Below are positions 10,488 to 64,000 of a DNA stretch of 64,000 nucleotides, piece by piece. The DNA lies in contig NZ_APLF01000004.1 in the NCBI RefSeq assembly GCF_000355905.1, positions 248,001 through 312,000 of the forward strand. Reading direction: 5' to 3'. The notes under the pieces are model-generated. The model saw nothing but the letters and a program-made list of their open reading frames with translations, did no database searches and had not been told where the DNA came from. The position numbers and the translations under genes are program-made. This DNA comes from Psychroflexus gondwanensis ACAM 44. Its GTDB lineage: Bacteria; Bacteroidota; Bacteroidia; Flavobacteriales; Flavobacteriaceae. Each line of letters opens with the position of its first letter. Position 1 is the stretch's first letter.

Positions 10488-10552
10488 ACTGCAAATATAC
10501 TGGTAACCAATTGAACAAAGAAATATTAAAATTTAAATCTTAGATAAAGATT

Positions 10553-13059: not shown

Positions 13060-13060
13060 T

Positions 13061-13816: not shown

Positions 13817-14307
13817 AAGTGTTATTGACTTTTTTCATTTGGTTTTCTATCTCAACAACTACAGAGGTGCATGAATTCTACCTTAGCGTTACCGATATAA
13901 ATTATGTTGCTGAAAAACAAAATCTTCAAATTATATCTAGAGTATTTACAGATGATTTTGAAGATGTTCTCAATAAACGATATCAAAAAGATTTTAAACT
14001 TATTCCCTCTTTAGAAGTCAAAGAAACTGAAGTCTACATTGAAAGATATATCAATGATAAACTTTTTATAGAATCTAAGGGTGATATTTTGACCCTTAAG
14101 TATTTAGGAAAGAAATACGAGGATGACATGGTTTATTTATATATTGAAATTGAAAATATAGATAAGCTTAACTCCATAACTATTGAAAATTTAATTTTGA
14201 CAGATTTGTTTGAGGAGCAAAAAAATATGATTCATTTCAAATCTGGAGAGTTTAAAAAAAGTTTTATTTTAGAAAAAAAACTCTCAAAACGAACGATAAC
14301 ATTTTAA
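13813..14307 (+). CDS. DUF6702-like envelope protein
   Basis: This 164-aa protein starts with a short hydrophobic segment and then EVHEFYLSVTDINYVAEKQ and ISRVFTDDFEDVL. This is the pattern of the uncharacterised flavobacterial DUF6702 family, often encoded next to M1 peptidases. The ATG overlaps the stop of the upstream gene (ATGA), indicating an operon. No catalytic motif was seen. Family assignment is from memory of the pattern, function unknown. Confidence 0.65.
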   Translation: MKVLLTFFIWFSISTTTEVHEFYLSVTDINYVAEKQNLQIISRVFTDDFEDVLNKRYQKDFKLIPSLEVKETEVYIERYINDKLFIESKGDILTLKYLGKKYEDDMVYLYIEIENIDKLNSITIENLILTDLFEEQKNMIHFKSGEFKKSFILEKKLSKRTITF

Positions 14308-14343
14308 CCCTAGTTTAATTTAAGTATAATAATACAGTACATT

Positions 14344-47839: not shown

Positions 47840-48376
47840 TTACAACATAAACTGATTAGCTCGCTTTCTGAGATGCTTTAGTGCTTTGGACATCTGGTTT
47901 TCCACCGTCTTTACAGAAATATCCATGTCTTTGGCAATATCTTTATAGATGGTTTTTTCTAGTTTGTTTTTGACAAATATCTCCTTACATCTTGGCGGCA
48001 ACTCATCTATATACTGGTGTAATTTTTTGAGTTTGGTTTCCTGATGGTATTCCTGAGTATTCATTGAACTCGCAATCACCTCACATTTGATAGTATCTAA
48101 ATCATCAAACTTAATTTTCTTTTTTCTTAAGTGTTGTAAAAATTGATTGTGACAAGACGTAAATAAGTAATTTTTAAGTGAACCTGTAATAGTGATTTTG
48201 CGACGCTTTTCATAAAATTTCATTAACATATCTTGAACAATATCTTCGGATAATTTTTTGTTTTCACAAAGCTTAAAGACATAATTACAAAGCCATTGGT
48301 AGTATTTATCGTATAGAATTTGATAAGCGATTTCATCGCCTTGTTTCAATTTTTGTATAAAATTAAGTTCTTTCAC
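47840..48376 (-). CDS. ECF-type RNA polymerase sigma factor
   Basis: This ~178-aa sigma-70 family factor starts from a GTG near 48376 (VKELNFIQKLKQGDE, the usual start); a TTG at 48433 would add 19 residues. Region 2 is LYDKYYQWLCNYVFKLCEN with DIVQDML. Region 4 is the HTH with YIDELPPRCKEIF and DISVKTVENQMSKALKHLR. It belongs to the FecI/SusI-like group with Bacteroidota 'RNA polymerase sigma-70' proteins. It is divergent from the FecR gene, with a short shared promoter region. Confidence 0.9.
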   Translation of the reverse strand: MKELNFIQKLKQGDEIAYQILYDKYYQWLCNYVFKLCENKKLSEDIVQDMLMKFYEKRRKITITGSLKNYLFTSCHNQFLQHLRKKKIKFDDLDTIKCEVIASSMNTQEYHQETKLKKLHQYIDELPPRCKEIFVKNKLEKTIYKDIAKDMDISVKTVENQMSKALKHLRKRANQFML

Positions 48377-48475
48377 TTTTAGCAAATTAAGAAAAATATT
48401 TAATTTATCTGAATTCAAATAGGGGTTTTTCAATAAAACCGCATCTTATAAGTAAGAGATCTACATAAATTCTAA

Positions 48476-49648
48476 ATGAATTCAGACCAACTTATTGAAA
48501 ATTATTTACAGGGAAGTCTTTCTAAAAGAGAGAGAGTTCAACTGAATAAATGGGTTAAAAAAGACTTAAAGAACCTTAAGCATTTTAAGGAACGTATTCG
48601 TTCACATTCTTATGTCATCCCCTTAAACTTCAATTCTGATAAAGCTTTTGATCGTTTTTATCAAAAAATTCAAGAGAAAAAACACTCAAGCAAACAAAGA
48701 CTAAAAATATTTTACTGGGCTGCAAGTTTTACAGCCTTAATAGGTCTAGGTCTTCTCTATCAAAATTCAGAATTATTATTTACAGATCAATATAATGTAG
48801 CCAATAAAAAAGAGGCTAATGAGAGTCTAAAGGAAATCCAAGTCACTTTATCTGATGGAAGTCAATACCGTATCGACAAAAAATCAACTACAAGTCTTGA
48901 GGACAAATCAGGTAGACTTGTCGCCAGTCAATTAGATAATATATTATCCTTTGAAACTCATTCTTCTATTGCAAAGGATACCTCAACAACCCAAATTGAC
49001 ATACCGTATGGAGAGAAATTAAAACTTAGACTATCTGATGGAACTTTAGTCTGGTTAAATTCGGGGAGTAGCCTAAGCTTTCCTCAACAATTTAGCTCTA
49101 AGTCCAAAACCAGAGAAGTAAATGTGAACGGTGAGGCCTATTTTGAGGTTTCTAAAAATAAACAAAAACCGTTTATAGTCCATACGCCCAGCGTAAGTGT
49201 GAAAGTTTTGGGGACTCACTTTAATATTTCTTCCTACGCCAACGATTCTAAGGCAGAAACAACCCTCATGGAAGGTAAAGTCCAAGTTTACCATAGCCTT
49301 CAAAAAAATACTCCTATTGAATTAGTACCAAATCAACAGGCGGTATTTGAAAAGACAAGCCGGATTTTTCAAAAAAATACGGTAGACGCCAACGCTTATA
49401 ACAGTTGGATTGATGACATTTTGATTGTAGACGGTCTGTCCTTTCTTGAACTTAAGAAAAAACTAGAACGCAAATACAATATTACAATTACCAACGAATT
49501 GGATCATCTATGGGAGAAAACCTACAGAGGTGAATTTAAAGATGAATCCCTTGCCGAAACCTTGGAAACCATCGCCCTAAGTTCAAAATTTAGTTTTTCT
49601 ATAGATGGAAAACACGTTAGAATTTTTAATAAAAAACCAAAGGATTAA
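48476..49648 (+). CDS. FecR-family anti-sigma factor
   Basis: This 390-aa inner-membrane protein has an N-terminal cytoplasmic anti-sigma region (about 1-75) and one transmembrane helix (IFYWAASFTALIGLGLLY, about 80-97). A periplasmic FecR domain carries IPYGEKLKLRLSDGTLVWLNSG, VNGEAYFEVSKN, and DUF4974 near the C-terminus (YRGEFKDESLAETLETIA). It would control the divergent sigma factor in response to the downstream receptor. Confidence 0.93.
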   Translation: MNSDQLIENYLQGSLSKRERVQLNKWVKKDLKNLKHFKERIRSHSYVIPLNFNSDKAFDRFYQKIQEKKHSSKQRLKIFYWAASFTALIGLGLLYQNSELLFTDQYNVANKKEANESLKEIQVTLSDGSQYRIDKKSTTSLEDKSGRLVASQLDNILSFETHSSIAKDTSTTQIDIPYGEKLKLRLSDGTLVWLNSGSSLSFPQQFSSKSKTREVNVNGEAYFEVSKNKQKPFIVHTPSVSVKVLGTHFNISSYANDSKAETTLMEGKVQVYHSLQKNTPIELVPNQQAVFEKTSRIFQKNTVDANAYNSWIDDILIVDGLSFLELKKKLERKYNITITNELDHLWEKTYRGEFKDESLAETLETIALSSKFSFSIDGKHVRIFNKKPKD

Positions 49649-49700
49649 ACAGGCCAACAACCAGTAGTTCAACACAATTATTAACTTAAAACACTTTACA

Positions 49701-52700
49701 ATGAAGATTTACACAAAAGGATTTGAACATCGAAAATGTTCAACTTTACGTATGACAACACTGAAAGCGATGCTCGTAGTATTCTTATCGTTCTTTGTTG
49801 TTAACCCAAGTTTTGCAAACCCAAAACTTCAACAGAACATTTCTATTGCTTATGAAGATGCAAAGCTTCTTGATGTTTTAAACGACATCAAATCAAAATC
49901 GAAATTCAATTTCTTTTATGATATCAATGAAATTGATGAGAATAAGAAAGTAAGTATTGAAGCCAAAAACGAAGCTTTTGAAAACATTTTAGATCAAATT
50001 AGCAAGCAAGTTAACTTCGATTATACCTTCAATGGAAATCAAGTTATCCTTACAGCCGGCATTACAAATGCCAAGGCTGTCACTGTTGCTATCCAAGACC
50101 GAGAAGTAACTGGAATGGTTGTAGGGCCAGATGGGAATCCGCTACCTGGAGCTAATGTCATAGTGAAAGGAACCAGCGTTGGCGCACAAACCGACTTTGA
50201 TGGAAACTTTACAGTACAGGTTCCTGAGGGTTCAAAATTCCTTGTGATCTCTTATGTAGGTTTTGAAGAGAAGGAAGTAAATGTAAAGGGGAAATCCAAC
50301 GTAACAGTTCAATTGAAGCCAGATGCTGGACAACTTGATGCCGTGGTTGTAATAGGGACTCGAGGTAAACCAAGAACCTCTTTTGACTCTCCAGTAGCTG
50401 TAGATAATTTTAAAACATCAGAGCTACAAAAAACAGGTAAAACGACAGTTGATCAACAATTGATGCTACGCGTCCCTTCCTATAATGCAACAGAACAGCC
50501 AGTATCAGATGCAGCGGCTCACTTTAGTCCTGCAGGTTTGAGAGGTCTTTTTCCTAGTAGAACTTTAGTATTGGTAAATGGAAAACGAAAAAATGCCAGT
50601 GCACTAGTTTATAGTTATGTCACTCCAGGCCGTGGTGAAGTTGGGGTAGATATGAAAGCTATTCCCTCTGCAGCTTTAGAAAGCGTAGAAGTTTTGAGAG
50701 ATGGTGCAGCTGCACAATACGGATCGGATGCGATTGCTGGTGTCATTAATCTTGTGATGAAGGAAGATGTAGATCCTTTTGTAAATACAGGTTATAGCAC
50801 AACAACACGTGGTGATGGTGAACAGTACCAATTAGAATCTGGTTTTGGTATAGACCTTGGACCTGAGGGCTTCGCCAATTTCACATTAAGTCATATGGAC
50901 TCTAAGGCTACACAACGTGCAGGAACAATCACAAGTGTACAAGATGAGGCAGATTACTGGGGAATTCCTGGTGCCGTACCAGATTATAGTATAGATGATT
51001 TATCTGCTTTTCTAGATCGAAATCCAAGTGCTGGTTTTCAAGTGGGTTTACCAAACACCACAATTACTAATTTTGCTTATAACTTAGGGTTTACCTTAGA
51101 TGAAGAGACCAATACAGAAATTTATTCTTTTGGTACACTCACCGACAGAGAAGGTTCTGCCCCTCAGTTTGCTAGAGTGCCATATTGGGTGCCAGGTTTT
51201 GAGGCCATCTATCCAGATCAAGATTTCTTTTTGGCTAAAATGGCTCCTCAAATTCGAGATCATACTTTCGCGTTTGGTTTGAAAACAACCTTTAACGAGT
51301 GGAATTTTGACTTAAGTTCCACTTTAGGTAAAAATAGAATTGACTATTATATCGAAGATTCGTTTAACCAGTCTTTTGCTGGAAGTAGTCCTTCTGATTT
51401 TTATAATGGAGCCCATGAATTTAGTCATGTGGTTAATAATTTGGATATTAATAGAACCTTCTACGATACAGGACTTGAAGCTTTATCAGTAGCTTTTGGT
51501 TTAGAACACAGGACAGAAAACTTTGTAACCGAAGAGGGTGAATTTGCTTCTTACGGGGATGGAGAATCTCCCGATGCACAAGGAGGCAGGACAGGTTCAG
51601 AATCTTTTGGAGGTTTTAGTCCAGAAAATGCATCAGATGATTACAGATCGAATGTTGGTTTTTACACAGACATCACTGCAGATTTTACAGAATCCTTTTT
51701 AGTGAGTGGTGCTTTGCGTTATGAAGATTACAGTGATTTCGGATCTAATATAAGTTGGAAATTAAGTTCTAGATATAAGTTTCTTGATGATAAATTGGTC
51801 GTAAGAGGTTCTGTAAGTAGTGGTTTTAGAGCGCCATCTTTACACCAAGTCTACTATACAGCCACAACAACGACTTTAACAACCAACGGAGTACAGCAAA
51901 ATGGTATTTTGAATAATGCCAACCCTGCTTTAAGAGCACTTGGTATTCCTGAGCTAGACGCTGAAACGTCGTTTAACTTGAGTGGTGGTTTAACCTATAG
52001 ATTTAATAGAAATTCTGGGATCACCATAGATGCTTACCAAATCGATGTAGACGATAGAATTGCACTCTCTGGGCAAGTTACAGCCACAGGAGATCCAAAT
52101 AGTCCTATAGACCAGACTCTAGATAATGTGGGAGTGGGTTCTGCTGGCTTTTTCTTGAATGCTATAGATACAAGAACCAAAGGGATTGATATTGTATATA
52201 GCTACAGTAATATAGAATTGGGAAGAGGTTTCTTAAGCGGTAGTGTAGCTGCTAACTTCAATGAAACAGAAGTGCAAGGAACTAATTTTCCTGCGTTTAT
52301 TGAAGACAATAATTTAGGAGATGCCATTTTTTCAAGAGAAGATATTTCCAGAGTTGAAAGCTGGAGACCTCAAGAAAAAGTTGTCGCAACCGCTAGTTAT
52401 GAAATCGATAAGTTTACCGCAAATTTATCTTTGATGTATTACGGTTCAGTAACTTACAGACACCCTGTTGATCCTATAAACGATGCTACCTACGGAGGCA
52501 AAACCTTAACGGATTTGAGCGTTAATTATGCGTTTACAGATAAAATCAATTTTACTCTGGGCGTGAATAATTTATTTGATGTTTTTCCTGATACCTTTGC
52601 TGAAGCATACGCATCAACTGGTGGAACACCACAAGACAGAAATTTAGATTTCGTTGGGAGATTTAAGTACCCGTGGCAAACCACACAGTTTGGTATTGAC

Positions 52701-52739
52701 GGAACTCGAGTTTTTTCTCAATTGAATATTAGTTTCTAA
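49701..52739 (+). CDS. STN-domain TonB-dependent outer-membrane receptor
   Basis: This 1012-aa receptor has a signal peptide ending near SFAN and an STN signalling domain (about 48-115, with YEDAKLLDVLNDIKSKSKF). A CarboxypepD_reg domain (about 135-205: VTGMVVGPDGNPLPGANVIVKG), plug (about 225-350) and beta-barrel ending in a C-terminal Phe (NISF) follow. The STN domain and the FecR gene 52 bp upstream make a trans-envelope signalling system. No SusD partner follows, so it is not a typical SusC; the ligand is unknown (glycan, iron chelate or other). Confidence 0.92.
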   Translation: MKIYTKGFEHRKCSTLRMTTLKAMLVVFLSFFVVNPSFANPKLQQNISIAYEDAKLLDVLNDIKSKSKFNFFYDINEIDENKKVSIEAKNEAFENILDQISKQVNFDYTFNGNQVILTAGITNAKAVTVAIQDREVTGMVVGPDGNPLPGANVIVKGTSVGAQTDFDGNFTVQVPEGSKFLVISYVGFEEKEVNVKGKSNVTVQLKPDAGQLDAVVVIGTRGKPRTSFDSPVAVDNFKTSELQKTGKTTVDQQLMLRVPSYNATEQPVSDAAAHFSPAGLRGLFPSRTLVLVNGKRKNASALVYSYVTPGRGEVGVDMKAIPSAALESVEVLRDGAAAQYGSDAIAGVINLVMKEDVDPFVNTGYSTTTRGDGEQYQLESGFGIDLGPEGFANFTLSHMDSKATQRAGTITSVQDEADYWGIPGAVPDYSIDDLSAFLDRNPSAGFQVGLPNTTITNFAYNLGFTLDEETNTEIYSFGTLTDREGSAPQFARVPYWVPGFEAIYPDQDFFLAKMAPQIRDHTFAFGLKTTFNEWNFDLSSTLGKNRIDYYIEDSFNQSFAGSSPSDFYNGAHEFSHVVNNLDINRTFYDTGLEALSVAFGLEHRTENFVTEEGEFASYGDGESPDAQGGRTGSESFGGFSPENASDDYRSNVGFYTDITADFTESFLVSGALRYEDYSDFGSNISWKLSSRYKFLDDKLVVRGSVSSGFRAPSLHQVYYTATTTTLTTNGVQQNGILNNANPALRALGIPELDAETSFNLSGGLTYRFNRNSGITIDAYQIDVDDRIALSGQVTATGDPNSPIDQTLDNVGVGSAGFFLNAIDTRTKGIDIVYSYSNIELGRGFLSGSVAANFNETEVQGTNFPAFIEDNNLGDAIFSREDISRVESWRPQEKVVATASYEIDKFTANLSLMYYGSVTYRHPVDPINDATYGGKTLTDLSVNYAFTDKINFTLGVNNLFDVFPDTFAEAYASTGGTPQDRNLDFVGRFKYPWQTTQFGIDGTRVFSQLNISF

Positions 52740-52762
52740 AGTAGAATTTATAATAATTTTTC

Positions 52763-52795
52763 AAACCCCTGTTTTAAAAAACAGGGGTTTTTTTG
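52763..52795 (+). terminator. Rho-independent terminator
   Basis: A perfect stem (52763-52775 with 52778-52790), rich in G/C at its middle, is followed by a T-run. It lies 24 bp after the TonB-dependent receptor stop. Confidence 0.85.
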
Positions 52796-52867
52796 TGGTT
52801 TCATCTACACGAACGTTAAGAGAAATGAAGAAGCTTTATAGGATACAATCAGCAACAAGATCTATAA

Positions 52868-53053
52868 GAAAATAAATATATAATACTAGGAGACCAAATT
52901 GAAGTGCAGCCTTATGTATACTCCTCTATGAGCATGAACCAATACGATTACTTTCCCAGTTGTTTGATGATGGGATTAGCCGGGAACGATTTGTTTCTTA
53001 ACCAAATCCTTTTCATCGATACTGAAAATAATTTTTTCGGGATTAGTGAATAA
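52868..53053 (+). pseudogene. Possible remnant of a retropepsin-like aspartic protease C-terminus
   Basis: This 61-codon frame without a start at its beginning reads ...ILGDQIEVQPYVYSS..., ...MMGLAGNDLFLNQILFIDT and ENNFFGISE-stop. This resembles the end of bacterial retropepsin-like aspartic proteases (GxDLLxNxxxxIDxxNxxxGI). Upstream frames are broken. It could also be a chance open frame in a non-coding region. Confidence 0.3.
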
Positions 53054-53369
53054 AAGGCCTTAACCCTATTTGAATAAGTCTCACTGCTCTACACCTATTA
53101 TCTTAGGAAAATAATTTTTCTAGAGCATTCAACACAGAGGTGATCCAAAAACGACCAGTTTAATAAATGCAAACGACTTCTTCTAAAAATTGAGAATCCT
53201 ACAAGCTTTTTTTATTTTAATTTCTAAAACTTACTCCCCACTTAAACATCTGTATTAAGAGTCTCAATATAAGCGATATCGATTGCGAAAAAAGATACGC
53301 TTTAGAAGAAATAATAGCTTGACCACCTATATATAAGAGCCATTACACCTTTACAAGGGCATTAATTAA

Positions 53370-53390
53370 CTATACATTACCTATACATTT
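53370..53390 (+). repeat. Direct repeat, 11-bp period
   Basis: CTATACATTA (53370-53379), one base, then CTATACATTT (53381-53390). The period of one helical turn is typical of binding sites for response regulators or similar factors, about 200 bp upstream of the glucan locus. Confidence 0.35.
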
Positions 53391-53541
53391 TTAGTTTTAT
53401 TAACAAATAATAATATTTAATATTTTTCTTATATTAGATATAGTAAGACTTTATTAACTAATTTTAAGAATAACTCAATAAAACTACTTATTTTTTAAGA
53501 CGTATGTTTTTTGTAGTGTATTTTTTTAAATAATTATCAAC

Positions 53542-53559
53542 TCAAACCTTTAAGTTTGA
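53542..53559 (+). promoter_or_regulatory. Candidate promoter/operator of the glucan locus
   Basis: TAAGTTTG (53551-53558) matches the -7 consensus TANNTTTG. It overlaps a short inverted repeat, TCAAAC (53542-53547) and GTTTGA (53554-53559). No clear -33 TTG is at the right spacing, so an activator may be required. It lies 29 bp before the first gene. Confidence 0.4.
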
Positions 53560-53587
53560 TATACATGAATTAACAAATATCTAACAC

Positions 53588-56500
53588 ATGAAAAAATTTC
53601 TATTTATAAGTATTGTCTTGTTATCTACTGTGATGGGGTTTTCTCAATCTCAAAGAGTTTCAATCACCACAGATGACCAAGGGATGAAACTACAAGTTGA
53701 TGGTAGTGACTTTATGATTAATGGTATGAATTGGGACTACTTCCCTAGAGGAACAAATTTCAATTACAGTTTATGGAACCAATCAGACGATGTTATAAAA
53801 GCAGCCTTGGATGCTGAAATGGGCTTACTCAAAAATATGGGAGTCAACACCATTAGACTGTATACAGGTATACAACCAAAATGGATAGAATACATCTATG
53901 AAAATTATGGTATTTATACCATGTTAAACCATTCTTTTGGTAGATATGGTTTAACTATCGATGGGAACTGGACTCCTGTGACTAAATATGATGATCCAGC
54001 AACTCAGGAATTACTTCTTTCGGAAGTAACTGAACTAGCTAATGATTACAAAGGAACTCCTGGTCTTTTACTTTTTCTTTTAGGAAATGAAAACAACTAT
54101 GGGTTGTTTTGGGCTGGTGCTGAAACAGAAGATTTTCCAGACGAGGAAGGTGAAAAACGAGCCGTTGGAGAAAACAGGGGCCGACCAATGTATCGCTTAA
54201 TGAACGAAGCCGCTGTTAAAATGAAAGAAATAAATGGTTCTTTACCAGTGGCTATTTGTAATGGTGATGTTTTATTTCTAGATATAATTGCCGAAGAATG
54301 CCCCGATGTAGATATTTATGGAACCAACATGTATCGCGGTAAGTCTTTTGGTAATGCTTTTGAGACGATTAAAGAAGTTTATGGCAAGCCTGTTCTATTT
54401 ACAGAGTTCGGTGCAGATGCTTTCAATGCTTTAGAGAACCAAGAAGACCAAAAATCTCAGGCTTACTACATGGTCAATAACTGGAAAGACATTTATGAGA
54501 ATGCTGCTGGATTAGGAAAAGCAGAAAACTCAATTGGGGGGTTTACCTTTCAATTTAGCGACGGCTGGTGGAAATACGGACAGACAAAAAATCTTGATGT
54601 TCACGATAGTAATGCGTCCTGGTCTAACGGGGGTTATGATAGAGACCATGAAGAAGGTAAAAATAACATGAATGAGGAATGGTTTGGAATTTGCGCAAAA
54701 GGAGCAACAAATTCAAGAGGTGTATACGATCTGTATCCGCGTGCTGCCTACTATGCCTTAAAAGAAGCACACCAACTAGATCCTTATGCAGAAGGGATTG
54801 ATGCTCAATTTATCGACAACTATTTCAGCACTATTTCATTAACCGATGCTGTGTTACGAGCTAGAGGTGATAAAGCCGCTATGAGTGGTGGAGGTTCTCA
54901 AAAAGTAGGCATTAGTAGAATAGCAGCGCATTTATCTACATTTTATACTGGGGGAAGTTTAATCACTACTCCAGATAATCCAGATCCAAATGACAATTCA
55001 TACCCCAACCAACTTGGGTTTGATCAAATGCAGTCTTATTTTATAGGTGTAGGCGGACAACCAGCGCCAAATGTAAATTTTAATGTAGACTTTAACATTG
55101 TAGGTGATGTTGCCGAAAATCCTATCAACGAGATTTTCTATGAAAATAGAGCCAGACCTATAAGAGTGACTTCCCCTGATGGCGAAGTTATCCTTCAAGA
55201 CAATAATAATTTGCAGGTTTATCAAGCAGAGTTTGAATGGAAAAATGACAATTTTGATTTAAGAGGCTTTTACAGAACAGGACATTACCATTGGGGTTAT
55301 GAAGGTGATATCTTTGGATTATATCCCGAAGCTAACTATGGCCCCAATTTAGATATCTACGGCGGTATCATTTCAGGTATTGAAGTGGATGCTAAGGGAA
55401 AGTTAGAAGGCTTAAAAGCAGCACTAGGTCCACAATTGTGGTGGGGAGCTAATCCAACCATGCTCTTTAAATATTCCAAAACTATTGCCAAGTGGGATAT
55501 TACAGGGATTTATAATAGGGATGTAGAAACAGACTTAGAATTCGATGAAAATGGACGACGTGTTTTAGATCAAAATCAGGTTAGGAGTGGGGTTATTCCA
55601 CCCTGGCCAATGGAAAGAGCAACTCTTGCTTTTGAACGGGATTTTGGAAATTTTGGATTAACCTTTGGTAGTATTTGGGCTGGAAGACCATTAAATGGGA
55701 GTACTTACCAAGATATTAATGATGCAGGAGAGATTGTCGTAGATGAAATAAACTCAGATGATAATTGGGGTGGAAAAGCAAAAATAACCTACGAGGCGGG
55801 TAAGTTTAAGTGGTATGCACAAGGTTCAATCATGGGGCTAGTGGCCAATGGAAGTGCTGACCCAACCATAACGTTTACGGGCTGGAAACTTAAGGATACT
55901 GGTAGTGGTAACCAAAGCAACTTTTTATCGGGTATGACCTACAATATTGGAAAATGGCAAATAGCTCCTAATTTTTTATGGCAAAAACCACTAGTAGACC
56001 CAATGCCTAACAACGGAGATGCCCCTGGACGATTGAGGAATTTTATAGATGATCCTTTTGCGGTAAGATGGAATAGAGAAACAACTGCTGGTGAGATTCT
56101 ATTTACCTACGACCCTACTCCTGGCACCTATATGTATGATTGGGATAATAATAAGGCTGAAGATGCTGAATTTGCTATAAGTGCTGGATTCATTTTTAGA
56201 CATCTGCCTACAACAATGGATGCGCATATTGGTTTCCTTGATACTCGAGAATTTTTTGCTTTTGGAACTTCTGTTCCAGCTGAAGACCTTTATGAGGCTC
56301 ACGCAAGAATTGTTTCTAAATTAAGTCCAGAATTAGGAATTGTAGGCGCTTTCTATTATGGTAATGGACAAGCACAAGGGGATTCTCAGAGACTTGTCAC
56401 CGATAGATTTGGGGCAAATTTAAACGTGTTTTACAAAAAATTTATCATTAATGGAGATGTAAAGGTAAATGACTGGGGTCCTTTTGACTACCACAGAGAT

Positions 56501-56758
56501 TTTAACTTGACATTCCCTCTGCAATTACAGCTTGACATATCTACAACTTTAGGGATGCCACAATGGTATATATTACCAAGTACACAAATTGGAATGAGAG
56601 GTATATGGAGGTCTTTAAATGAATTTTCTCCTCGATTTTCTCCAAATAATACACCCATTGGTTCTTTTAATGCAGAGCCTATATTAAGCCCTGTTGGCTT
56701 TCCTAACGGATCTGAGTGGGAAATAATGACCTATATAAGATTTAACATCGGTAAATAA
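53588..56758 (+). CDS. Clan GH-A glycoside hydrolase fused to an outer-membrane beta-barrel
   Basis: This 1056-aa protein has a Sec signal ending at GFSQ and no lipobox. Residues ~30-400 form a (beta/alpha)8-type glycosidase: GMNWDYFPRGTNF, LLKNMGVNTIRLYTG, acid/base Glu168 in LLGNENNYG and nucleophile Glu273 in LFTEFGADAF, spaced as in clan GH-A. The start resembles GH72 glucanosyltransferases and GH2 barrels. From about residue 480 the sequence changes to alternating aromatic beta-strands (DLRGFYRTGHYHW, GNFGLTFGSIWAGR, ITYEAGKFKWYAQGS, DVKVNDWGPFDYH) up to the end YIRFNIGK, as in outer-membrane barrels. It is first in the glucan locus. Activity is probably on beta-1,3-glucan, inferred from neighbours. 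Confidence 0.72.
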   Translation: MKKFLFISIVLLSTVMGFSQSQRVSITTDDQGMKLQVDGSDFMINGMNWDYFPRGTNFNYSLWNQSDDVIKAALDAEMGLLKNMGVNTIRLYTGIQPKWIEYIYENYGIYTMLNHSFGRYGLTIDGNWTPVTKYDDPATQELLLSEVTELANDYKGTPGLLLFLLGNENNYGLFWAGAETEDFPDEEGEKRAVGENRGRPMYRLMNEAAVKMKEINGSLPVAICNGDVLFLDIIAEECPDVDIYGTNMYRGKSFGNAFETIKEVYGKPVLFTEFGADAFNALENQEDQKSQAYYMVNNWKDIYENAAGLGKAENSIGGFTFQFSDGWWKYGQTKNLDVHDSNASWSNGGYDRDHEEGKNNMNEEWFGICAKGATNSRGVYDLYPRAAYYALKEAHQLDPYAEGIDAQFIDNYFSTISLTDAVLRARGDKAAMSGGGSQKVGISRIAAHLSTFYTGGSLITTPDNPDPNDNSYPNQLGFDQMQSYFIGVGGQPAPNVNFNVDFNIVGDVAENPINEIFYENRARPIRVTSPDGEVILQDNNNLQVYQAEFEWKNDNFDLRGFYRTGHYHWGYEGDIFGLYPEANYGPNLDIYGGIISGIEVDAKGKLEGLKAALGPQLWWGANPTMLFKYSKTIAKWDITGIYNRDVETDLEFDENGRRVLDQNQVRSGVIPPWPMERATLAFERDFGNFGLTFGSIWAGRPLNGSTYQDINDAGEIVVDEINSDDNWGGKAKITYEAGKFKWYAQGSIMGLVANGSADPTITFTGWKLKDTGSGNQSNFLSGMTYNIGKWQIAPNFLWQKPLVDPMPNNGDAPGRLRNFIDDPFAVRWNRETTAGEILFTYDPTPGTYMYDWDNNKAEDAEFAISAGFIFRHLPTTMDAHIGFLDTREFFAFGTSVPAEDLYEAHARIVSKLSPELGIVGAFYYGNGQAQGDSQRLVTDRFGANLNVFYKKFIINGDVKVNDWGPFDYHRDFNLTFPLQLQLDISTTLGMPQWYILPSTQIGMRGIWRSLNEFSPRFSPNNTPIGSFNAEPILSPVGFPNGSEWEIMTYIRFNIGK

Positions 56759-56766: not shown

Positions 56767-58206
56767 ATGATACATAACAAATCAAAATATTTTCAAATAA
56801 TAGGACTTGTTTTACTGTCTATGATAGTAACGACGAGTTGTGAAAGAGAAGTGTCTGATGCTGCTGTACTTGCAACTTTTCCTACTACAGCGGATGTTTT
56901 TACAGATAATCCAGTAGGTTTAACAGATGAGTTCTTTATATCATTTGATCCAGTAGAAGGTGCAAATGTAAATGGCTTTGATACAGATGAAAGTGAAGCT
57001 TATGAAGGTTTTGCCTCCATAAGGATTGACGTGCCTTCACCTAATGATCCTGATGGTGGTTTTATAGGTGGTATTTTTAGAGATCGAGGTGAGGGTAGGA
57101 ATTTAACCGGTTATGATGCATTGACCTTTTGGGCTAAAGCTTCTACAACAGGAGTTTTAGGAGAAGCTGGTTTTGGGACCGACTTTGATGGGGATAAATT
57201 TAGAACCGTAGCAGCGGATTTACAGTTATCAACTAATTGGAAAAAATATGTAATCCCAATGCCAGATCCATCGAAATTAACTCAAGAAAGAGGCATGTTT
57301 GTTTTTTCAGCTGGAACTCAAAGCACCGACGGATTAGGTTTTGTTATATGGTTGGATGAAATTAAGTTTGAAAAACTAGGAACAATAGCACAACCGAGGC
57401 CTGCTATTCAAAATGGAGAGGATGTGGTGATCCAAAATTTTATAGGGGGAACCGTAAACATTTCAGGATTATCCCAGACTTTTAATACGGCAGCTCAGGG
57501 AGATGTAACTGTAAATGCAGCTCTTGCTTATTTTGAATTTCAATCATCAAATGAAACTGTCGCAACAGTAAGTGCTTTAGGTCAAGTTAATGTTGTGGGT
57601 GGAGGCACAGCTACTATTACAGCATCTTTAGGAGTAAATGAGGCTCAAGGTTCGTTAACCATCGAATCATTAGGTAATTTTACGCCTGCCCCTACTCCAA
57701 CTCGAAATCCAAATAATGTTATCTCTATATTTAGTGATGCTTATCAAAATGTAGCCGTCGATTATTATAACGGATTCTTTACTGGTGATGGCCAAACCAC
57801 TCTAGGAGGAGAAGGCCCAGGTGGTGCAGACCTGAGTGTTGATGGAGATGGTATAATTAACTACACTAATCTAAACTTTGTAGGAATAGGAACATTCATG
57901 GATGTCCCTACTATTGATGCCACATCAATGACACATATTCATGTAGACCTTAATATAAACGAAGCATTAAATGCGGGTGATAATATAACCTTACAAATCC
58001 TTAATGATGTTGGCGGTAACGAAACATCTGGTTCAGTTACAATTACTGCAGCTAATTTGGCTGCAAATGATTGGAGAGGTTTTGATATTCCATTAGCTAA
58101 TTTTACAGGATTATCTAATCGCTCCCAACTAGGTCTGTTGTTCTTTATTTCCAATTCAATTTCTAATGTGTATGTCGATAATATTTACTATTACATCGAA
58201 CAATAA
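56767..58206 (+). CDS. Surface lipoprotein with Ig-like (Big_2) domain and carbohydrate-binding-like modules
   Basis: This 479-aa lipoprotein (lipobox VTTSC, Cys25) is followed by EREVSD, an acidic run consistent with surface export. The first beta-sandwich (about 45-205) has YEGFASIRIDV and FWAKAS, and ends VIWLDEIKFEKL, like CBM-type galactose-binding folds. A Big_2 domain follows (about 215-300: ATVSALGQVNVVGGGTATITAS). A second similar sandwich ends in VYVDNIYYYIEQ. It would bind glucan, like a SusE/F-type protein. The start is 8 bp after the previous gene. Confidence 0.75.
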   Translation: MIHNKSKYFQIIGLVLLSMIVTTSCEREVSDAAVLATFPTTADVFTDNPVGLTDEFFISFDPVEGANVNGFDTDESEAYEGFASIRIDVPSPNDPDGGFIGGIFRDRGEGRNLTGYDALTFWAKASTTGVLGEAGFGTDFDGDKFRTVAADLQLSTNWKKYVIPMPDPSKLTQERGMFVFSAGTQSTDGLGFVIWLDEIKFEKLGTIAQPRPAIQNGEDVVIQNFIGGTVNISGLSQTFNTAAQGDVTVNAALAYFEFQSSNETVATVSALGQVNVVGGGTATITASLGVNEAQGSLTIESLGNFTPAPTPTRNPNNVISIFSDAYQNVAVDYYNGFFTGDGQTTLGGEGPGGADLSVDGDGIINYTNLNFVGIGTFMDVPTIDATSMTHIHVDLNINEALNAGDNITLQILNDVGGNETSGSVTITAANLAANDWRGFDIPLANFTGLSNRSQLGLLFFISNSISNVYVDNIYYYIEQ

Positions 58207-58221: not shown

Positions 58222-59109
58222 ATGAAAACTATACACTCAAAAAATAAATTAAGACTTGCGCCTTATAATTTAGCCTTAATTCTAGGTGCTATTTTAATAG
58301 TGACTAGCTGCGACCTAGATGAGACCCAAGAAGTAACAACACTCAACAACCTTGTGATGTCTGATGAGTTTGATGTTGATGGAGCACCAGATAGTAATAT
58401 GTGGGGGTATGATGTTGGAGATGGAACAAATGAAGGGATTCCTGGTTGGGGAAATAACGAATTGCAGTACTATACAGACAGACCAGAAAACGTAACTGTA
58501 GAAAACGGAGTCCTTATAATTACAGCTAAAGAAGAATCTTTTGAAGGTAAAGGCTATACTTCAGCGAGATTAACTTCTCAAGATTTGTTCGAGCAACAAT
58601 ACGGTCGATTTGAAGCACGGATTCGAGTTCCGTTTGGTAAAGGCTACTGGCCTGCATTTTGGCTTTTAGGTGTGCCTAAAACCATAACGGTTGATCATGA
58701 AGAAGTTTTAGAAGAATGGCCTGCTATAGGTGAAATAGATATTATGGAATATCTGGGAGATGAGCCAACCAATGTATTTGGAACTTTACATGGTCCAGGA
58801 TTTTCGGGCGCAGAATCGATTTCTAAAGAATTTACCCTAGAAAACGACCGTTTTGATACAGGTTTTCATGTGTTTGGGATTGAGTGGTCGCCTACTTCCG
58901 TCAACTTTTATGTGGACGGCAATATATACCAAACTCTCACTCGCGAGGACGTAGCAGAAGAAACGGATGGAGAAGGAGAATGGGTATTTGATAGACCTTT
59001 TTATATCATACTCAATGTGGCTATTGGTGGTAATTTACCTGGTAATCCAACTGAGAATACAGTTTTCCCCCAAAGCATGATTGTAGATTACGTAAGAGTA
59101 TATAATTAA
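58222..59109 (+). CDS. GH16 family endo-beta-1,3-glucanase (laminarinase) lipoprotein
   Basis: This 295-aa enzyme has a lipobox IVTSC (Cys30) and an acidic DLDET tail suggesting surface display. The GH16 core has GWGNNELQYYTDRPENV, ARLTSQ and FGKGYWPAFWLLG. The catalytic motif EIDIME has nucleophile Glu171 and acid/base Glu176. Later motifs are GIEWSPTSVNFYVDG and FYIILNVAIGGNLPG. The EIDIME form is typical of beta-1,3-glucanases rather than agarases or carrageenases. It is located between two putative binding lipoproteins. Confidence 0.93.
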   Translation: MKTIHSKNKLRLAPYNLALILGAILIVTSCDLDETQEVTTLNNLVMSDEFDVDGAPDSNMWGYDVGDGTNEGIPGWGNNELQYYTDRPENVTVENGVLIITAKEESFEGKGYTSARLTSQDLFEQQYGRFEARIRVPFGKGYWPAFWLLGVPKTITVDHEEVLEEWPAIGEIDIMEYLGDEPTNVFGTLHGPGFSGAESISKEFTLENDRFDTGFHVFGIEWSPTSVNFYVDGNIYQTLTREDVAEETDGEGEWVFDRPFYIILNVAIGGNLPGNPTENTVFPQSMIVDYVRVYN

Positions 59110-59119: not shown

Positions 59120-59896
59120 ATGAAAATCTTAAAATATAATATCCTTATTGTTTTTTTCCTATGTATCGGTAGCGGATTTATTTTTCAATCTTGTGAAGAT
59201 GATGATGATATGTCAAATGAATTAGTGGCAAGGTTTACCCAAACCATTAATCAAAGTACAGGTACGGTTACCTTTATCAATCTATCAGAAAATGCAATAT
59301 CCTATAGTTGGAATTTTGGTGATGGTTCATCTTCATCATTTATAAATCCTGTAAAATCTTACGAAGAAGGGGGTTCATATACTGTTACACTTCAAGTAAC
59401 TGGTGGTAATGGTGATACGGCAAGCTTTCAAGATACTTTTATCGTTGATGAACAATTTGGCGGGGGCTTATTAATTAATGGAGATTTCGAAAATGGTTCG
59501 GAAGGCTGGATAGTCGGTGTAGATGATAATGTGCCCGCACCAGTTGTTACAGAAAATGATAACTCTTTTTATGAAGTTAACATCACTAATCCAGATCCAA
59601 ATCAACCATTTTTAGTTAATGTTAGTCAAAAGGTTGCTATCACACAAGGTGAAACTTATGTCTTAACATTCGAGGCCTGGTCTGATGGCGATAGAACTTT
59701 AATTGCTGGCATAGGTCTTAGTGGAGGTGACTTTTCAAATGATACCCAAACTGTAAACCTTACTGATACTCAACAACAATTTGAAATCACACTTAGCTCG
59801 CAAGAATTTGGAGCTCTTGACGCTAGAGTTTTATTTGACTCTAATGGTGATGCTGGTCTTGTGAGAATAGATAATGTCTCTTTAAACTTACAATAG
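59120..59896 (+). CDS. PKD-domain surface lipoprotein with CBM4-like C-terminus
   Basis: This 258-aa lipoprotein (lipobox FIFQSC, Cys25) is followed by EDDDDM, a strong acidic surface-export-like signal. The PKD domain (about 33-110) has YSWNFGDGSSSSFINPVKSY. A C-terminal sandwich begins LINGDFENGSEGWIVG and ends VRIDNVSLNLQ, the pattern of CBM4/9-like modules. It probably binds glucan at the cell surface. It begins 10 bp after the GH16 gene and is followed by a terminator-like hairpin. Confidence 0.82.
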   Translation: MKILKYNILIVFFLCIGSGFIFQSCEDDDDMSNELVARFTQTINQSTGTVTFINLSENAISYSWNFGDGSSSSFINPVKSYEEGGSYTVTLQVTGGNGDTASFQDTFIVDEQFGGGLLINGDFENGSEGWIVGVDDNVPAPVVTENDNSFYEVNITNPDPNQPFLVNVSQKVAITQGETYVLTFEAWSDGDRTLIAGIGLSGGDFSNDTQTVNLTDTQQQFEITLSSQEFGALDARVLFDSNGDAGLVRIDNVSLNLQ

Positions 59897-60061: not shown

Positions 60062-63000
60062 ATGATTGAAGACAAGATGACTAAAGATCAAACGTCCAAA
60101 ACTAGTAACTTAGAACAAGTAAGATTAAATGGTGAAAAATTCCTGAAAATCCATAACAACGATGCTATGAGGCCTTTTTTCATGAGTATTGTGAGCGATT
60201 CTAACCACTGGATGTTTATTTCTAGTAATGGAGGTTTAACAGCAGGAAGACGAAATGCAGAGTATGCCTTATTTCCATATTACACCGACGATAAAATCAC
60301 CGAATCGGCAAATTATACAGGGAGTAAAACTATTTTTAGAGTTCACTTGAATGATGATATTAATTTCTGGGAACCTTTTTCAAACCGTTTTGTAGAACAG
60401 TACCAGATTACCAGGAATATCTATAAAAACATTTATGGAAATAAACTGTTTTTTGAAGAAATCAACCACAGTCTAAACCTTACTTTCACTTACCGATGGT
60501 CAACTAGTGATCAATTTGGTTTTGTGAAAAAATCTCAATTAGTTAGCCATAACTCTGCTCCTATAAAAGTTGAAGTTTTAGATGGATTGCAAAACGCCCT
60601 ACCGGCTGGTGTCGTTAGTGATTTACAAACTCAAAGCAGTAATTTGGTTGATGCCTACAAACGCAACGAGCTTGATAAAAAAACAGGCTTAGGCATTTTT
60701 GCACTTAGTGCTGTGCCAGTAGATAAAGCCGAACCTAGTGAAGCTTTAAAAGCTAATGTGGTTTGGTCTTTGGGAATTGAAAATCCTACTTACCTCCTTT
60801 CCTCTTTACAACTTGAAACCTTCAGGACCGGAAAAAATCTTGCCGAAGAAACTGATGTTAAAGCAGAAAAAGGAGCCTATTTTATTAATAAAACACTTCA
60901 ACTAAAAGCAGATGGGAGTAAAACATGGTATATTGTTGCTGATGTTAATTATAATCATGCTTCAGTGGTAAAACTTCAGCAAGATTTACACCAAGAGAAT
61001 CTTTTAAATTTAATTGAAGAAGATATAAATTCTGGCACTGAGAAATTAATTCGACTTATTGCTGCCGCAGACGGACTTCAACGCAGTAATGACAACTTGA
61101 GAGATATTCGCCATTATTCCAATACCATGTTTAATATAATGCGTGGTGGAATTTTCGATAATAATTATCAGATTGAGCGATGGGATTTTAAAAACTATAT
61201 CCATAAAGCAAACATTCCTTTGGCCAAAAAATTTGAAGCTCAGATAAAAGGTTTACCAGAGAGCTTTTCTTTTAGTGATCTAAAGGCTTTAGCTAAAGAT
61301 CAAAATAATGAAGATTTTACTAGGCTTTCCTATGAATACTTGCCTCTAAAATTTAGCCGAAGACATGGAGATCCAAGTCGACCATGGAATCAATTTTCAA
61401 TTAATACCAAAGATGAAGATGGCTCCAAAATTCTGAATTATGAAGGCAACTGGCGTGATATCTTTCAAAATTGGGAAAGCTTAGTACACTCCTACCCTCA
61501 GTTTATTGAAGGTATGATTTACAAATTTTTAAATGCTACAACTTTTGACGGTTATAACCCCTATCGTGTCACCAAAGATGGCTTTGATTGGGAAACTATA
61601 GAGCCAGACGATCCTTGGTCTTACATTGGTTACTGGGGGGATCATCAAATTATTTATTTACTCAAATTCTTAGAATTTTATGAAGACTATCAACCAGGAA
61701 GTATAGCTCAATTATTCAGCAAATCTCAATTTGTTTATGCTAACGTGCCTTACAGGATTAAGTCATATCAAGATATTCTAAACGATCCAAAAGATACCAT
61801 AGAATTTGACCATAAAGCCGATGCTAAAATTAGAAGTAAACGTGATAAGATTGGAGCTGATGGTGCATTACTTCAGAATAAAAGAGGTGAAATTATTCAC
61901 GTCAATTTTGTTGAAAAAATACTAGCTACAACGTTAGCTAAATTATCCAACTTTATTCCTGAGGCGGGAATATGGATGAATACCCAACGCCCAGAATGGA
62001 ACGATGCTAATAATGCTTTAGTCGGAAATGGTGTTTCAATGGTCACCTTAGCCTACCTGAGACGGTTTTTAGACTTCTTTAAATCGATTTTTAAAGACAT
62101 CGATGCCTCAGAAAACTACGAAGTTTCTGAAGAGCTAGCTGAGATGTTTGCCAAAATGGAAAAAACATTCGCTATCAATAAACATTTAACTGAAGGTAAA
62201 TTTAGTGATCACCAACGTAAAGAAGTTTTGGACGAATTAGGTGAAGCAGCGAGTGTTTTTAGGACTCAGGTTTACACTACTGGTTTTTCAGGACATAAGA
62301 CTGAAGTCTCTTCAACACAAATCGGGCACTTTATCAACACCAGTTTAGTTTATCTAGAGCATGCAATTGAAGTGAATAAACGAACTGACAACTTATACCA
62401 CGCCTATAACCTAATGACCGTTAATCAAGATAAGGTCTCCATAGATTACCTTTCTGAGATGCTCGAAGGTCAAGTTGCTGTATTAAGTTCAGGTTACTTA
62501 AATTCTAATCAAGCTTTAACTTTACTTGATGCTTTAAAGCAAAGCGCTTTATTTAGACCCGACCAATACAGTTATTTATTATACCCCTACAAAGACTTAA
62601 AAGGCTTTTTGGACCGAAATAATGTTCCAGAAACTTCTGTAAAGTCATCAAAATTGCTTCAAAAGCTGGTGAAAGATGGCCATAAAGGTATAATTGAAAA
62701 AGATGTAAAAAACAATTATCACTTTAATGGCAACTTCAATAATGCTAAGAAATTAAAAGAAGCTCTTTTATCTTTAGAAGACCAGGCTTATTCAACTTTG
62801 GCAGAAAAAGAAATGGACCAAATACTTAAAGTTTATGAAGAAGTTTTTAATCATAAATCATTTACAGGACGTTCCGGGACTTTTTATGGCTATGAAGGCT
62901 TAGGATCTATTTATTGGCATATGGTTTCAAAACTGCAATTAGCGGTTTTGGAAACCTGCATACAAGCCATAGATGCTAAGTCATCTCCTGAAGTTATCGG

Positions 63001-63514
63001 TCGATTACTAGAGCACTATTATGAAATAAACGAAGGCATAGGTGTTCATAAATCTCCTAAGTTATATGGTGCATTTCCAACTGATCCTTATTCTCATACT
63101 CCACAAGGTAAAGGCGCACAACAACCTGGGATGACAGGCCAAGTGAAAGAAGACATTTTAAGTCGATTTGGAGAATTGGGTGTTCATATTTATAAAGGGA
63201 AAATTCAATTTAAACCCGATTTATTGCGAAAAACCGAATTTTTAGAAGAAGAACATGTTTTTAGGTTTGTAGATCTAAGCGGTCAAAAGCATCGCCTTCA
63301 ACTTAAGCGGAATTCATTAGGATTTACCTTTTGCCAAGTTCCAATAATTTATTCTATTTCAGATCAAAACAAAATAGAAATAGAATTCTATAGCAAAAAT
63401 TCAGAACAGATTGAAGGACTTCATTTGCCTAAAGAAATTAGTCAAGAAGTTTTTAACCGCTCAGGTCAAGTTAAAATAATTCACGTTTATATTGAAGCGT
63501 CTATTTTAAAATAA
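60062..63514 (+). CDS. GH149-type beta-1,3-glucan phosphorylase
   Basis: This 1150-aa protein has no signal peptide, so it is cytoplasmic. The size and the segments NSNGG-like SSNGGLTAGRRNAEYALFP, NYEGNWRDIFQNWE (about 459-472) and DPWSYIGYWGDHQIIYLLK (about 515-533) fit GH149, a clan GH-Q-related (GH94-like) family of about 1100 aa. These enzymes phosphorolyse beta-1,3-glucans to glucose-1-phosphate. The Asp of the RDIFQ motif is a candidate general acid by analogy with GH94; I did not verify the exact residue. GH94 and GH161 are alternatives. Its place next to GH16 and GH17 supports laminarin use. Confidence 0.82.
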   Translation: MIEDKMTKDQTSKTSNLEQVRLNGEKFLKIHNNDAMRPFFMSIVSDSNHWMFISSNGGLTAGRRNAEYALFPYYTDDKITESANYTGSKTIFRVHLNDDINFWEPFSNRFVEQYQITRNIYKNIYGNKLFFEEINHSLNLTFTYRWSTSDQFGFVKKSQLVSHNSAPIKVEVLDGLQNALPAGVVSDLQTQSSNLVDAYKRNELDKKTGLGIFALSAVPVDKAEPSEALKANVVWSLGIENPTYLLSSLQLETFRTGKNLAEETDVKAEKGAYFINKTLQLKADGSKTWYIVADVNYNHASVVKLQQDLHQENLLNLIEEDINSGTEKLIRLIAAADGLQRSNDNLRDIRHYSNTMFNIMRGGIFDNNYQIERWDFKNYIHKANIPLAKKFEAQIKGLPESFSFSDLKALAKDQNNEDFTRLSYEYLPLKFSRRHGDPSRPWNQFSINTKDEDGSKILNYEGNWRDIFQNWESLVHSYPQFIEGMIYKFLNATTFDGYNPYRVTKDGFDWETIEPDDPWSYIGYWGDHQIIYLLKFLEFYEDYQPGSIAQLFSKSQFVYANVPYRIKSYQDILNDPKDTIEFDHKADAKIRSKRDKIGADGALLQNKRGEIIHVNFVEKILATTLAKLSNFIPEAGIWMNTQRPEWNDANNALVGNGVSMVTLAYLRRFLDFFKSIFKDIDASENYEVSEELAEMFAKMEKTFAINKHLTEGKFSDHQRKEVLDELGEAASVFRTQVYTTGFSGHKTEVSSTQIGHFINTSLVYLEHAIEVNKRTDNLYHAYNLMTVNQDKVSIDYLSEMLEGQVAVLSSGYLNSNQALTLLDALKQSALFRPDQYSYLLYPYKDLKGFLDRNNVPETSVKSSKLLQKLVKDGHKGIIEKDVKNNYHFNGNFNNAKKLKEALLSLEDQAYSTLAEKEMDQILKVYEEVFNHKSFTGRSGTFYGYEGLGSIYWHMVSKLQLAVLETCIQAIDAKSSPEVIGRLLEHYYEINEGIGVHKSPKLYGAFPTDPYSHTPQGKGAQQPGMTGQVKEDILSRFGELGVHIYKGKIQFKPDLLRKTEFLEEEHVFRFVDLSGQKHRLQLKRNSLGFTFCQVPIIYSISDQNKIEIEFYSKNSEQIEGLHLPKEISQEVFNRSGQVKIIHVYIEASILK

Positions 63515-63520: not shown

Positions 63521-64000
63521 ATGAAGCCAGTAACACCTGTCCTTTTAGTAATAAGCCTTGTTTTACTGGCTTCTTGCCAATCATCTCAAAAAGAGAAAAA
63601 CCCTATGCAAAATAATAGAAATCTAACTGCTAAAGAAATTCTTAATAAACCAGAGTTTTTAGCAATTTCTTACGGTGGCTACCGAAAAGAGTCACGCGAA
63701 GAGCAACCCACTATTAAACAGCTTAAAGAAGATTTGAAAATTCTTCACGCTATGGATATTCGCATATTACGAACCTATAATGTTCGCCTTCCACATGCTG
63801 CCAACATTTTAAAAGCAATTGACGAACTGAAGAAAGCAAATCCTGAATTTGAAATGTATATGATGCTCGGGGCATGGATCGATTGTAAAAATGCGTGGAC
63901 CGAAATGCCACTCAACCACAATGAAGGAAGCGAACATAACGCTATAGAAATTGACAGAGCTGTAGAATTAGCTAATCAATATCCTGATATTGTTAAAATA
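63521..64000 (+). CDS. GH17-like beta-1,3-glucanase lipoprotein (partial, runs off window)
   Basis: The first 160 residues of an exported enzyme, truncated by the right edge. The lipobox is LVLLASC (Cys19), followed by QSSQKEK with no acidic run, so a periplasmic-facing location is likely. The start of a TIM barrel shows AISYGGYRKESREEQPTIKQ, then DIRILRTYNVRLP and MYMMLGAWIDCKNAW, matching bacterial GH17 proteins of laminarin loci. Catalytic Glu residues lie beyond the edge. It follows GH149 by 6 bp. Confidence 0.82.
   Translation, partial: MKPVTPVLLVISLVLLASCQSSQKEKNPMQNNRNLTAKEILNKPEFLAISYGGYRKESREEQPTIKQLKEDLKILHAMDIRILRTYNVRLPHAANILKAIDELKKANPEFEMYMMLGAWIDCKNAWTEMPLNHNEGSEHNAIEIDRAVELANQYPDIVKI

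Follow-up and report, generated by a model that had tools for sequence, protein, structure and literature searches.

Fusion of a clan GH-A glycosidase to a predicted outer-membrane barrel, paired with a lipoprotein gene, recurs across the Bacteroidota

The stretch of DNA analysed for the current report (the window) comprises 64,000 nucleotides of the 3.3-Mb genome of Psychroflexus gondwanensis ACAM 44 (C4:248001-312000). A single reading frame on its forward strand (53588-56758, +) encodes a protein of 1056 amino acids (aa) that ends in YIRFNIGK, as a sequence-only reading of the same DNA had claimed, and in which a clan GH-A glycosidase domain is joined to a predicted outer-membrane beta-barrel. 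This fusion recurs across the Bacteroidota, and the gene for it stands constantly beside one lipoprotein gene, as in the SusCD-like pairs. That the barrel travels with a downstream lipoprotein gene is new here; the sequence-only reading had missed the pairing. On somewhat better than even terms, we interpret the two proteins as an enzyme-fused outer-membrane channel and a surface lipoprotein that act together on beta-1,3-glucan (laminarin).

The fusion itself is real for all practical purposes. The named homologues that match the protein best come from Psychroflexus, and in the named-genome set, for which 386 related stretches were reduced to 80 loci, the protein is fused over its full length in all 80. 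A search of 100 genomes, the window's own included, gave 36 with a match (29 at full length, 3 for the catalytic half only and 4 remote). Because the relatives are fused over their full length, we do not regard the frame as a chance open reading frame (ORF) or an assembly join. Among 395 genomes sampled across the Bacteroidota phylum, the catalytic half has a close match in 43 and a match of any kind in 52; the barrel half is present in 34 of the 43 and missing from the other 9, and no genome among the 395 was found to have the barrel half without the catalytic half. The frame that includes the barrel is at least 1028 aa long in 33 of the 34, and is fragmented in the remaining one (G328).

The chain begins with a Sec-type signal peptide (residues 1-20, MKKFLFISIVLLSTVMGFSQ; 53588..53647, +) whose last residue, Q20, is among the invariant columns of an 81-row alignment. 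No lipobox is seen in it by eye, in agreement with the sequence-only reading; the GH16 and PKD + CBM4/9 proteins described below were judged in the same manner. The catalytic domain (residues 21-400; 53648..54787, +) is followed by a predicted helical linker (residues 385-440; 54740..54907, +), for which AlphaFold2 (AF2) shows helices at 385-394, 406-414 and 418-425, and by the predicted outer-membrane barrel domain of ~24 strands (residues 441-1056; 54908..56755, +). With conservation expressed as the mean entropy over 53 representatives, the linker stretch 391-440 is less conserved than residues 30-390 (1.49 versus 0.88).

The AF2 model, which was run on the 81-row alignment, has a (beta/alpha)8 fold at residues 67-320, with E168 (54089..54091, +), the predicted acid/base, directly after beta-4 and preceded by N167, and with E273 (54404..54406, +), the predicted nucleophile, ending beta-7; residues 323-383 are of low confidence. 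N167, E168, Y249, E273 and W327 are invariant in all 122 distinct full-length proteins. The modelled (beta/alpha)8 fold, the Asn-preceded acid/base Glu and the nucleophile Glu on beta-7 are those of clan GH-A, and they bear out the clan that had been named earlier from Glu168 and Glu273. When the full model was submitted to Foldseek, ranks 1-6 were occupied by GH158 entries and the seventh by GH157 (template-modelling scores, or TM-scores, by target length of 0.45-0.53 for these seven), and GH2 came after them. A profile built from 36 members of the catalytic family gave whole-sequence E values of 1.9e-7 for BuGH158, 1.4e-4 for LaGH157, 3.3e-4 for a second GH158 and ~2e-3 for GH2 beta-galactosidases; the similarity to GH158 lies mainly at positions 111-300 of 382, and that to GH157 at positions 164-326 only. 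A single-sequence search of the solved structures with the full protein found no match at E <= 1.

The Pfam models touched by the same 36 members at E <= 0.01 are a mixture in which the GH2 TIM model PF02836 (33/36) is followed by GH53 and PF11790 (7/36 each), GH72 (PF03198; 6/36, best 2.8e-5) and Cellulase (2/36). The window's own catalytic domain matches PF11790 only, under its cut-off, and is not matched by PF02836. Six proteins, full-length or stand-alone, were scanned for the N-terminal sugar-binding and Ig-like domains of GH2 and gave no match to them, and AF2 places the TIM domain almost directly after the signal peptide. A C-terminal Ig-like domain of the GH158 type is likewise missing from the AF2 model, where helices and then barrel strands follow the TIM domain (with 323-383 of low confidence). 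We place the catalytic domain in clan GH-A, near GH157 and GH158 and assigned to neither, and it is probably a beta-1,3-glucan enzyme. GH157 and GH158 are described as endo-beta-1,3-glucanases (PMC10229575, PMC7157763), and we consider it very likely that the substrate is beta-1,3-glucan. The likeness to GH72 glucanosyltransferases that the sequence-only reading had seen in the N-terminus did not survive: PF03198 matches neither the window protein nor anything else in its own genome, it touches 6 of the 36 members against 33 for PF02836, the GH158, GH157 and GH2 models fit better, and in both profile and fold searches the nearest families are GH158 and GH157. There are also distant relatives of the catalytic domain (L186-L191; ~340-480 aa, 25-27% identity) that have no barrel. 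A DGWWKAG stretch is common to L186-L188, which may represent another unnamed GH-A family.

For the C-terminal half (chain 441-1055), 24 main strands are predicted, with six loop strands of 3-5 residues left out of the count. On one face of the predicted barrel 8 of the 11 connections have 2-3 residues (the others 6, 8 and 20), and of the 12 on the other face 9 span 23-36 residues and the remainder 7, 7 and 11. The alternate-residue amphipathicity of the strands is greater than in 5000 of 5000 shuffles (z 6.0), whereas the strands of the TIM domain show none (z -1.6). The AF2 model of the barrel alone has a predicted local distance difference test score (pLDDT) of 73.0 and a predicted TM-score (pTM) of 0.73. 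Of the 836 Foldseek matches to the barrel half at E <= 10, the best 50 were listed, and all 50 are outer-membrane barrel proteins or complexes that contain one; BtuB, which is the best by E-value, MOMP, MtrB, FimD, AlgE and LptD are among them. The half thus has the amphipathic strands, the even number of strands (24, by our own count) and, on one of its faces, the short turns of an outer-membrane barrel, and as far as the models can be trusted it is highly probable that it is one, as the sequence-only reading had proposed. It is known as a barrel by its fold only, because it has no sequence match in Pfam or the PDB: its profile found nothing among the PDB sequences at E <= 10, eight chosen barrel halves had no match in Pfam at E <= 10, including PF03797, PF07715 and PF00593, and the full protein was also without a match to the plug (PF07715) or the receptor barrel (PF00593). 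Profile searches, which had been suggested earlier for both halves, therefore brought the catalytic half to GH158 and GH157 and left the eight barrel halves without a Pfam family.

Three of the predicted outer loops, at residues 565-593, 616-622 and 964-974, have entropies of 0.30, 0.14 and 0.14, versus 0.88 for the catalytic domain, and the remaining nine range from 0.57 to 1.56. The longest of the three is the very conserved loop between strands S5 and S6 (GHYHWGYEGDIFGLYPEANYGPNLDIYGG; 55280..55366, +). An even number of strands, taken together with the turns of mostly 2-3 residues on one face, would place both ends of the barrel in the periplasm and hence the enzyme as well; an exception might arise if the linker were to thread the pore, as in autotransporters. 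We lean, on the strength of this predicted topology, toward an enzyme domain that is periplasmic and lies below the pore rather than above it.

The gene directly downstream encodes the partner lipoprotein (479 aa; 56767..58206, +), which is recognized by adjacency, by co-occurrence among genomes and by its lipobox pattern. It has Cys25 in a C-E-R motif, a Big_2 domain and a C-terminal domain (~305-477) that is also found in many other proteins. Among the named loci with at least 1200 nt of downstream DNA (two of the 80 were dropped for having too little), the partner comes immediately after the fused gene in 78 of 78, at a distance of -65 to +19 nt; each of the 78 has an adjoining open stretch of at least 350 codons, and 67 have the lipobox pattern. 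The partner also follows the fused gene in the loci L183, L184 and L185 and in Persicobacter. In the scan of 395 genomes, a near-full-length partner occurs in 33 of the 34 barrel genomes and is adjacent, by coordinates, in 32 of these 33; in one genome (G397) the partner is in two pieces on two contigs. Where the enzyme stands alone the partner is absent, both from the 9 such genomes of the same scan and from the 11 stand-alone loci that were fetched, 10 of them with 1200 nt or more of downstream DNA (of 12 stand-alone genomes, G424 was not among the loci fetched). Partner matches of any length occur in 63 of the 395 genomes, the shorter ones being widespread.

When a profile of the partner was used as the query, the only matches were weak ones of discoidin type and those at the Big_2 region, which involved a teneurin-like protein, phage proteins and a carbohydrate-binding protein. 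The partner itself does not match a SusD profile. From its genomic context we infer that the partner binds glycan, and it seems likely that barrel and lipoprotein form a physical complex. Two of the partners (L183, 10185-12725; L185, 5874-8405) are larger, at 846 and 843 aa, and have extra copies of the C-terminal domain.

The stand-alone enzymes differ from the fused ones at their N-termini. The lipobox pattern is present in 6 of 11 stand-alone enzymes, and two more are lipoprotein-like by eye, whereas a lipobox-like string was found by regular expression in 9 of the 122 fused homologues; most of these strings lie within the hydrophobic stretch, and they are probably fortuitous. A quick maximum-likelihood tree was made from the catalytic domains of 53 fused and 11 stand-alone proteins, with six distant relatives as the outgroup, and its starred branches force at least five changes between the fused and stand-alone labels. 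The tree alone cannot tell losses from gains; homology among the barrels makes loss on repeated occasions the likelier course, and barrel and lipoprotein were apparently lost together on several occasions. In G215, a 35th genome besides the 34 with the barrel, all that is left of the barrel is a decayed stub that follows the stand-alone enzyme. In L181 a remnant of 77 residues (~3387-3617; 32% identity, E 4e-10) lies at and just past the end of the stand-alone enzyme ORF, and is apparently a barrel caught in decay.

In the window the gene order is FecR, TonB receptor, fused gene, partner, GH16, PKD/CBM4, GH149 and GH17-like. The GH16 lipoprotein (58222..59109, +; PF00722, E 3.5e-23) and the PKD + CBM4/9 lipoprotein (59120..59896, +; PF18911, PF02018), both with a lipobox by eye, are followed by a GH149 beta-1,3-glucan phosphorylase (60062..63514, +; NF058639, 1813 bits against a cut-off of 1150) and by a GH17-like lipoprotein that is cut by the window end (63521..64000, +) and whose relatives of 425 and 427 aa match PF00332 at 26.4 and 29.9 bits (cut-off 28.2). 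These neighbours fit the beta-1,3-glucan context that had been read from the sequence earlier. Across the 80 named loci the partner and GH16 are nearly constant, and the TonB receptor has no counterpart at its position. The genes at 47840-52739 (a sigma-factor-like gene, by our own reading, FecR and the TonB receptor) may be a local insertion, since none of the 80 named loci was found to have them next to the fused gene. The gap that separates the TonB receptor from the fused gene is ~850 bases long (52740-53587), and the sole wholly internal ORF of at least 30 aa in it has 49 aa.

The surroundings of the fused gene were compared in the 59 named loci that are flanked on either side by ~10 kb, to the exclusion of 21 with shorter flanks. 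In 32 of the 59 a LuxR-type regulator gene lies directly upstream and no SusC or SusD was found within ~10 kb, 21 have SusC and/or SusD but lack such a regulator, 3 have both and 3 have neither; the counts did not change when frames cut by the locus ends were included. "LuxR-type" denotes here a Y_Y_Y domain over its cut-off together with a GerE match slightly under its own, and SusC and SusD were sought within the locus with small home-made profiles, by which divergent members may be missed. In Bacteroides finegoldii the fused protein and the adjoining partner are 55% and 34% identical to those of the window, and the order is fused gene, partner, GH16, two more genes and bglX, in a series of genes that runs from a DUF6377 gene to bglX. 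SusC and SusD are neither annotated in that locus nor found there by profile, and there is no SusD on the whole record. The record itself (L224, NZ_OY725931.1, "plasmid 29") carries a valine-tRNA ligase gene and rpsA and looks like a mislabelled piece of chromosome.

Contig C10 of the window genome also carries a SusC-SusD-SGBP-GH3 block; in P. lacisalsi (L034) the counterpart of this block is located just upstream of the fused gene. Within this laminarin-type block (L231, C10:44000-63000, at 8654-15730) two proteins are 100% and SusD 99.8% identical to those of P. lacisalsi, and SusC only 91%, a mosaic that suggests recent exchange. The block on C10 and the loci with SusC and/or SusD nearby refute the notion that the fused form replaces SusCD everywhere.

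Both halves of the system can be compared with known ones. SusC/SusD and BtuB/BtuG are also pairs of an outer-membrane barrel and a lipoprotein, but SusC/BtuB-type barrels have 22 strands, whereas the protein described here has ~24, lacks a plug or TonB-receptor match, is fused to an enzyme and has a partner without a SusD match. The autotransporter enzymes of type Va share with it the succession of N-terminal enzyme, linker and C-terminal barrel in one chain, but their barrels have 12 strands, as opposed to the ~24 predicted here without a match to PF03797. BuGH158, the endo-laminarinase of B. uniformis (PDB 6PAL), resembles the catalytic domain in its clan, its N-E acid/base pair and its beta-1,3-glucan locus, and GH158 gives the best profile and the best Foldseek match, although the sequence similarity is local only. 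Where the present protein has a predicted barrel, BuGH158 has a C-terminal Ig-like domain of its own (PMC7157763); its solved chain is ~400 aa long. LaGH157 (PDB 9G5G/9FZ9) belongs to an endo-beta-1,3-glucanase family of clan GH-A and has a DGWWK stretch after beta-8 in common with the present domain, but it is distant (E 1.4e-4) and has no barrel.

Polysaccharide utilization loci (PULs) with GH149 and laminarin PULs of Muricauda have been described (PMC5827456, PMC13188888). In those clusters of the latter paper that start with a LuxR gene, the "GH2 beta-glycosidase" is very probably the fused protein. The evidence comes from M. spongiicola 2012CJ35-5, a strain that PMC13188888 lists: on another contig of this strain (L056) six of the nine ORFs with at least 250 aa were scanned, and only the fused protein, which lies there behind a LuxR-type gene, matched a GH2 model. 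The terms "outer membrane", "SusD" and "TonB" do not occur in the main text of PMC13188888, and the passages of it that were consulted mention neither the barrel nor the partner. The "GH0" of North Sea laminarin PULs (PMC10108472) might conceivably be the fused protein as well, which would place it among the most highly expressed genes of a bloom MAG, but we give this identification no weight as evidence. The RefSeq name of the B. finegoldii homologue is "glycoside hydrolase family 2 TIM barrel-domain containing protein". The system was overlooked, we believe, because databases, and probably a 2026 laminarin paper, label the fused protein "GH2". In the accessible portions of the open-licence literature searched, no description was found of a glycosidase fused to an outer-membrane barrel or of the barrel-lipoprotein pair, in keeping with the earlier impression that the layout is undescribed.

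The two genes might constitute an outer-membrane module for beta-1,3-glucan (laminarin) that operates along the following lines. The C-terminal half would form a closed, plug-less barrel of ~24 strands, and the lipoprotein, situated on the cell surface over or beside the barrel, would capture glucan chains in a role like that of SusD. Chains made by GH16 would enter the barrel and might be bound there by the conserved aromatic outer loops. At the periplasmic side the catalytic domain, suspended from the N-terminus, would cleave the emerging chains internally and with retention, with E168 as acid/base and E273 as nucleophile; GH17 and GH149, and in relatives also GH30 and GH3, would then complete the degradation. 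Inward passage of the products through the barrel is plausible, and we give even chances to the barrel being a glucan channel. More tentatively, as a possibility that we would not yet favor, the module might be an undescribed uptake machine of the Bacteroidota, in which a plug-less channel of ~24 strands, with a glucanase at its periplasmic mouth and a dedicated surface lipoprotein as its lid, imports beta-1,3-glucan chains and cuts them as they emerge, as an alternative to SusCD in many marine and at least one gut species.

Several observations weigh against such an interpretation. Structure prediction with strand counting, a check that accompanied the sequence-only reading, did give a C-terminal half with ~24 predicted strands, but the models are only fair, since the full chain has a pLDDT of 72.9 and a pTM of 0.54 and the barrel alone has 73.0 and 0.73. 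The even number of predicted strands depends on leaving out the six short loop strands, and the listed barrels score low by query length (TM-scores of 0.19-0.39), either because strand numbers differ or because the model is imperfect. The outer loops taken together equal the strands in conservation (mean entropy 1.03 each). As for the pairing, 78 of 78 does not mean 78 independent events, since the named loci are closely related (65-87% identity). In G239 barrel and partner are apart on the same contig, with the partner ~10 kb upstream; G328, with its broken barrel gene, has no partner; G222 encodes a partner-like protein (35% identity) without a barrel; and the stand-alone genome G200 encodes, upstream, a protein with the partner-like C-terminal domain. 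SusC and/or SusD lie within ~10 kb in 24 of the 59 loci, and in view of the block on C10 the barrel is not the only candidate channel in the window genome.

The last two facts are also what one would expect if barrel and lipoprotein were to build a surface complex that feeds SusC/SusD, with all of the import taking place through SusC/SusD nearby or elsewhere. Such an accessory role is doubtful in the face of the 32 loci that come with a regulator gene of their own and lack SusCD in the vicinity, and of the B. finegoldii genes from DUF6377 to bglX that are without SusCD. Rather unlikely, too, is a display of the enzyme on the cell surface, for which the linker would thread the pore of an autotransporter-like barrel, and the glucanase would face outward beside the lipoprotein and GH16, with the barrel serving as an anchor and not as a transporter. 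The order of N-terminal passenger, helical linker and C-terminal barrel is indeed that of the type V autotransporters, six stand-alone enzymes have the lipobox pattern and two more are lipoprotein-like by eye, and PUL enzymes that are lipoproteins often face outward. However, the barrel has ~24 strands and not 12, neither PF03797 nor any other Pfam model matches the eight barrel halves, large barrels normally have their N-terminal domains (POTRA, TPR, plug) in the periplasm, and an anchor alone leaves the three very conserved outer loops and the constant partner unexplained.

Other alternatives concern the chemistry of the catalytic domain. A retaining hydrolase and a transglycosylase cannot be told apart by sequence, and the domain might elongate, branch or rearrange beta-1,3-glucan in the fashion of GH72 instead of hydrolysing it; the six members touched by PF03198 and the transglycosylase activity given for a GH17 of a Muricauda laminarin PUL in PMC13188888 speak for this, but the better matches to the GH158, GH157 and GH2 models and the degradative enzymes encoded next to the fused gene make it improbable. 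We find it hardly credible that the annotation is right and the protein an ordinary GH2 beta-glycosidase whose beta-rich tail is unrelated. The RefSeq name of the B. finegoldii homologue and the PF02836 matches in 33 of the 36 members are in its favor, but the six proteins scanned lack the accompanying sugar-binding and Ig-like domains, and the tail is amphipathic, with outer-membrane barrel proteins or complexes in all 50 of its listed fold matches.

Laminarin is a major marine carbon store, the Bacteroidota are among its main consumers, and its uptake across the outer membrane is credited to SusC/SusD. An uptake machine of the kind outlined here would, if the interpretation is true, explain those laminarin loci that have no SusCD nearby, and if the barrel is the missing transporter, it would amount to a second route of glycan import with an enzyme built in and to a new kind of uptake machine. 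Current annotation sees a "GH2 TIM barrel" only and hides a membrane half of 600 residues. The apparently repeated joint loss of barrel and lipoprotein, which leaves behind free enzymes that are often lipoproteins, would constitute a natural experiment on the role of the barrel.

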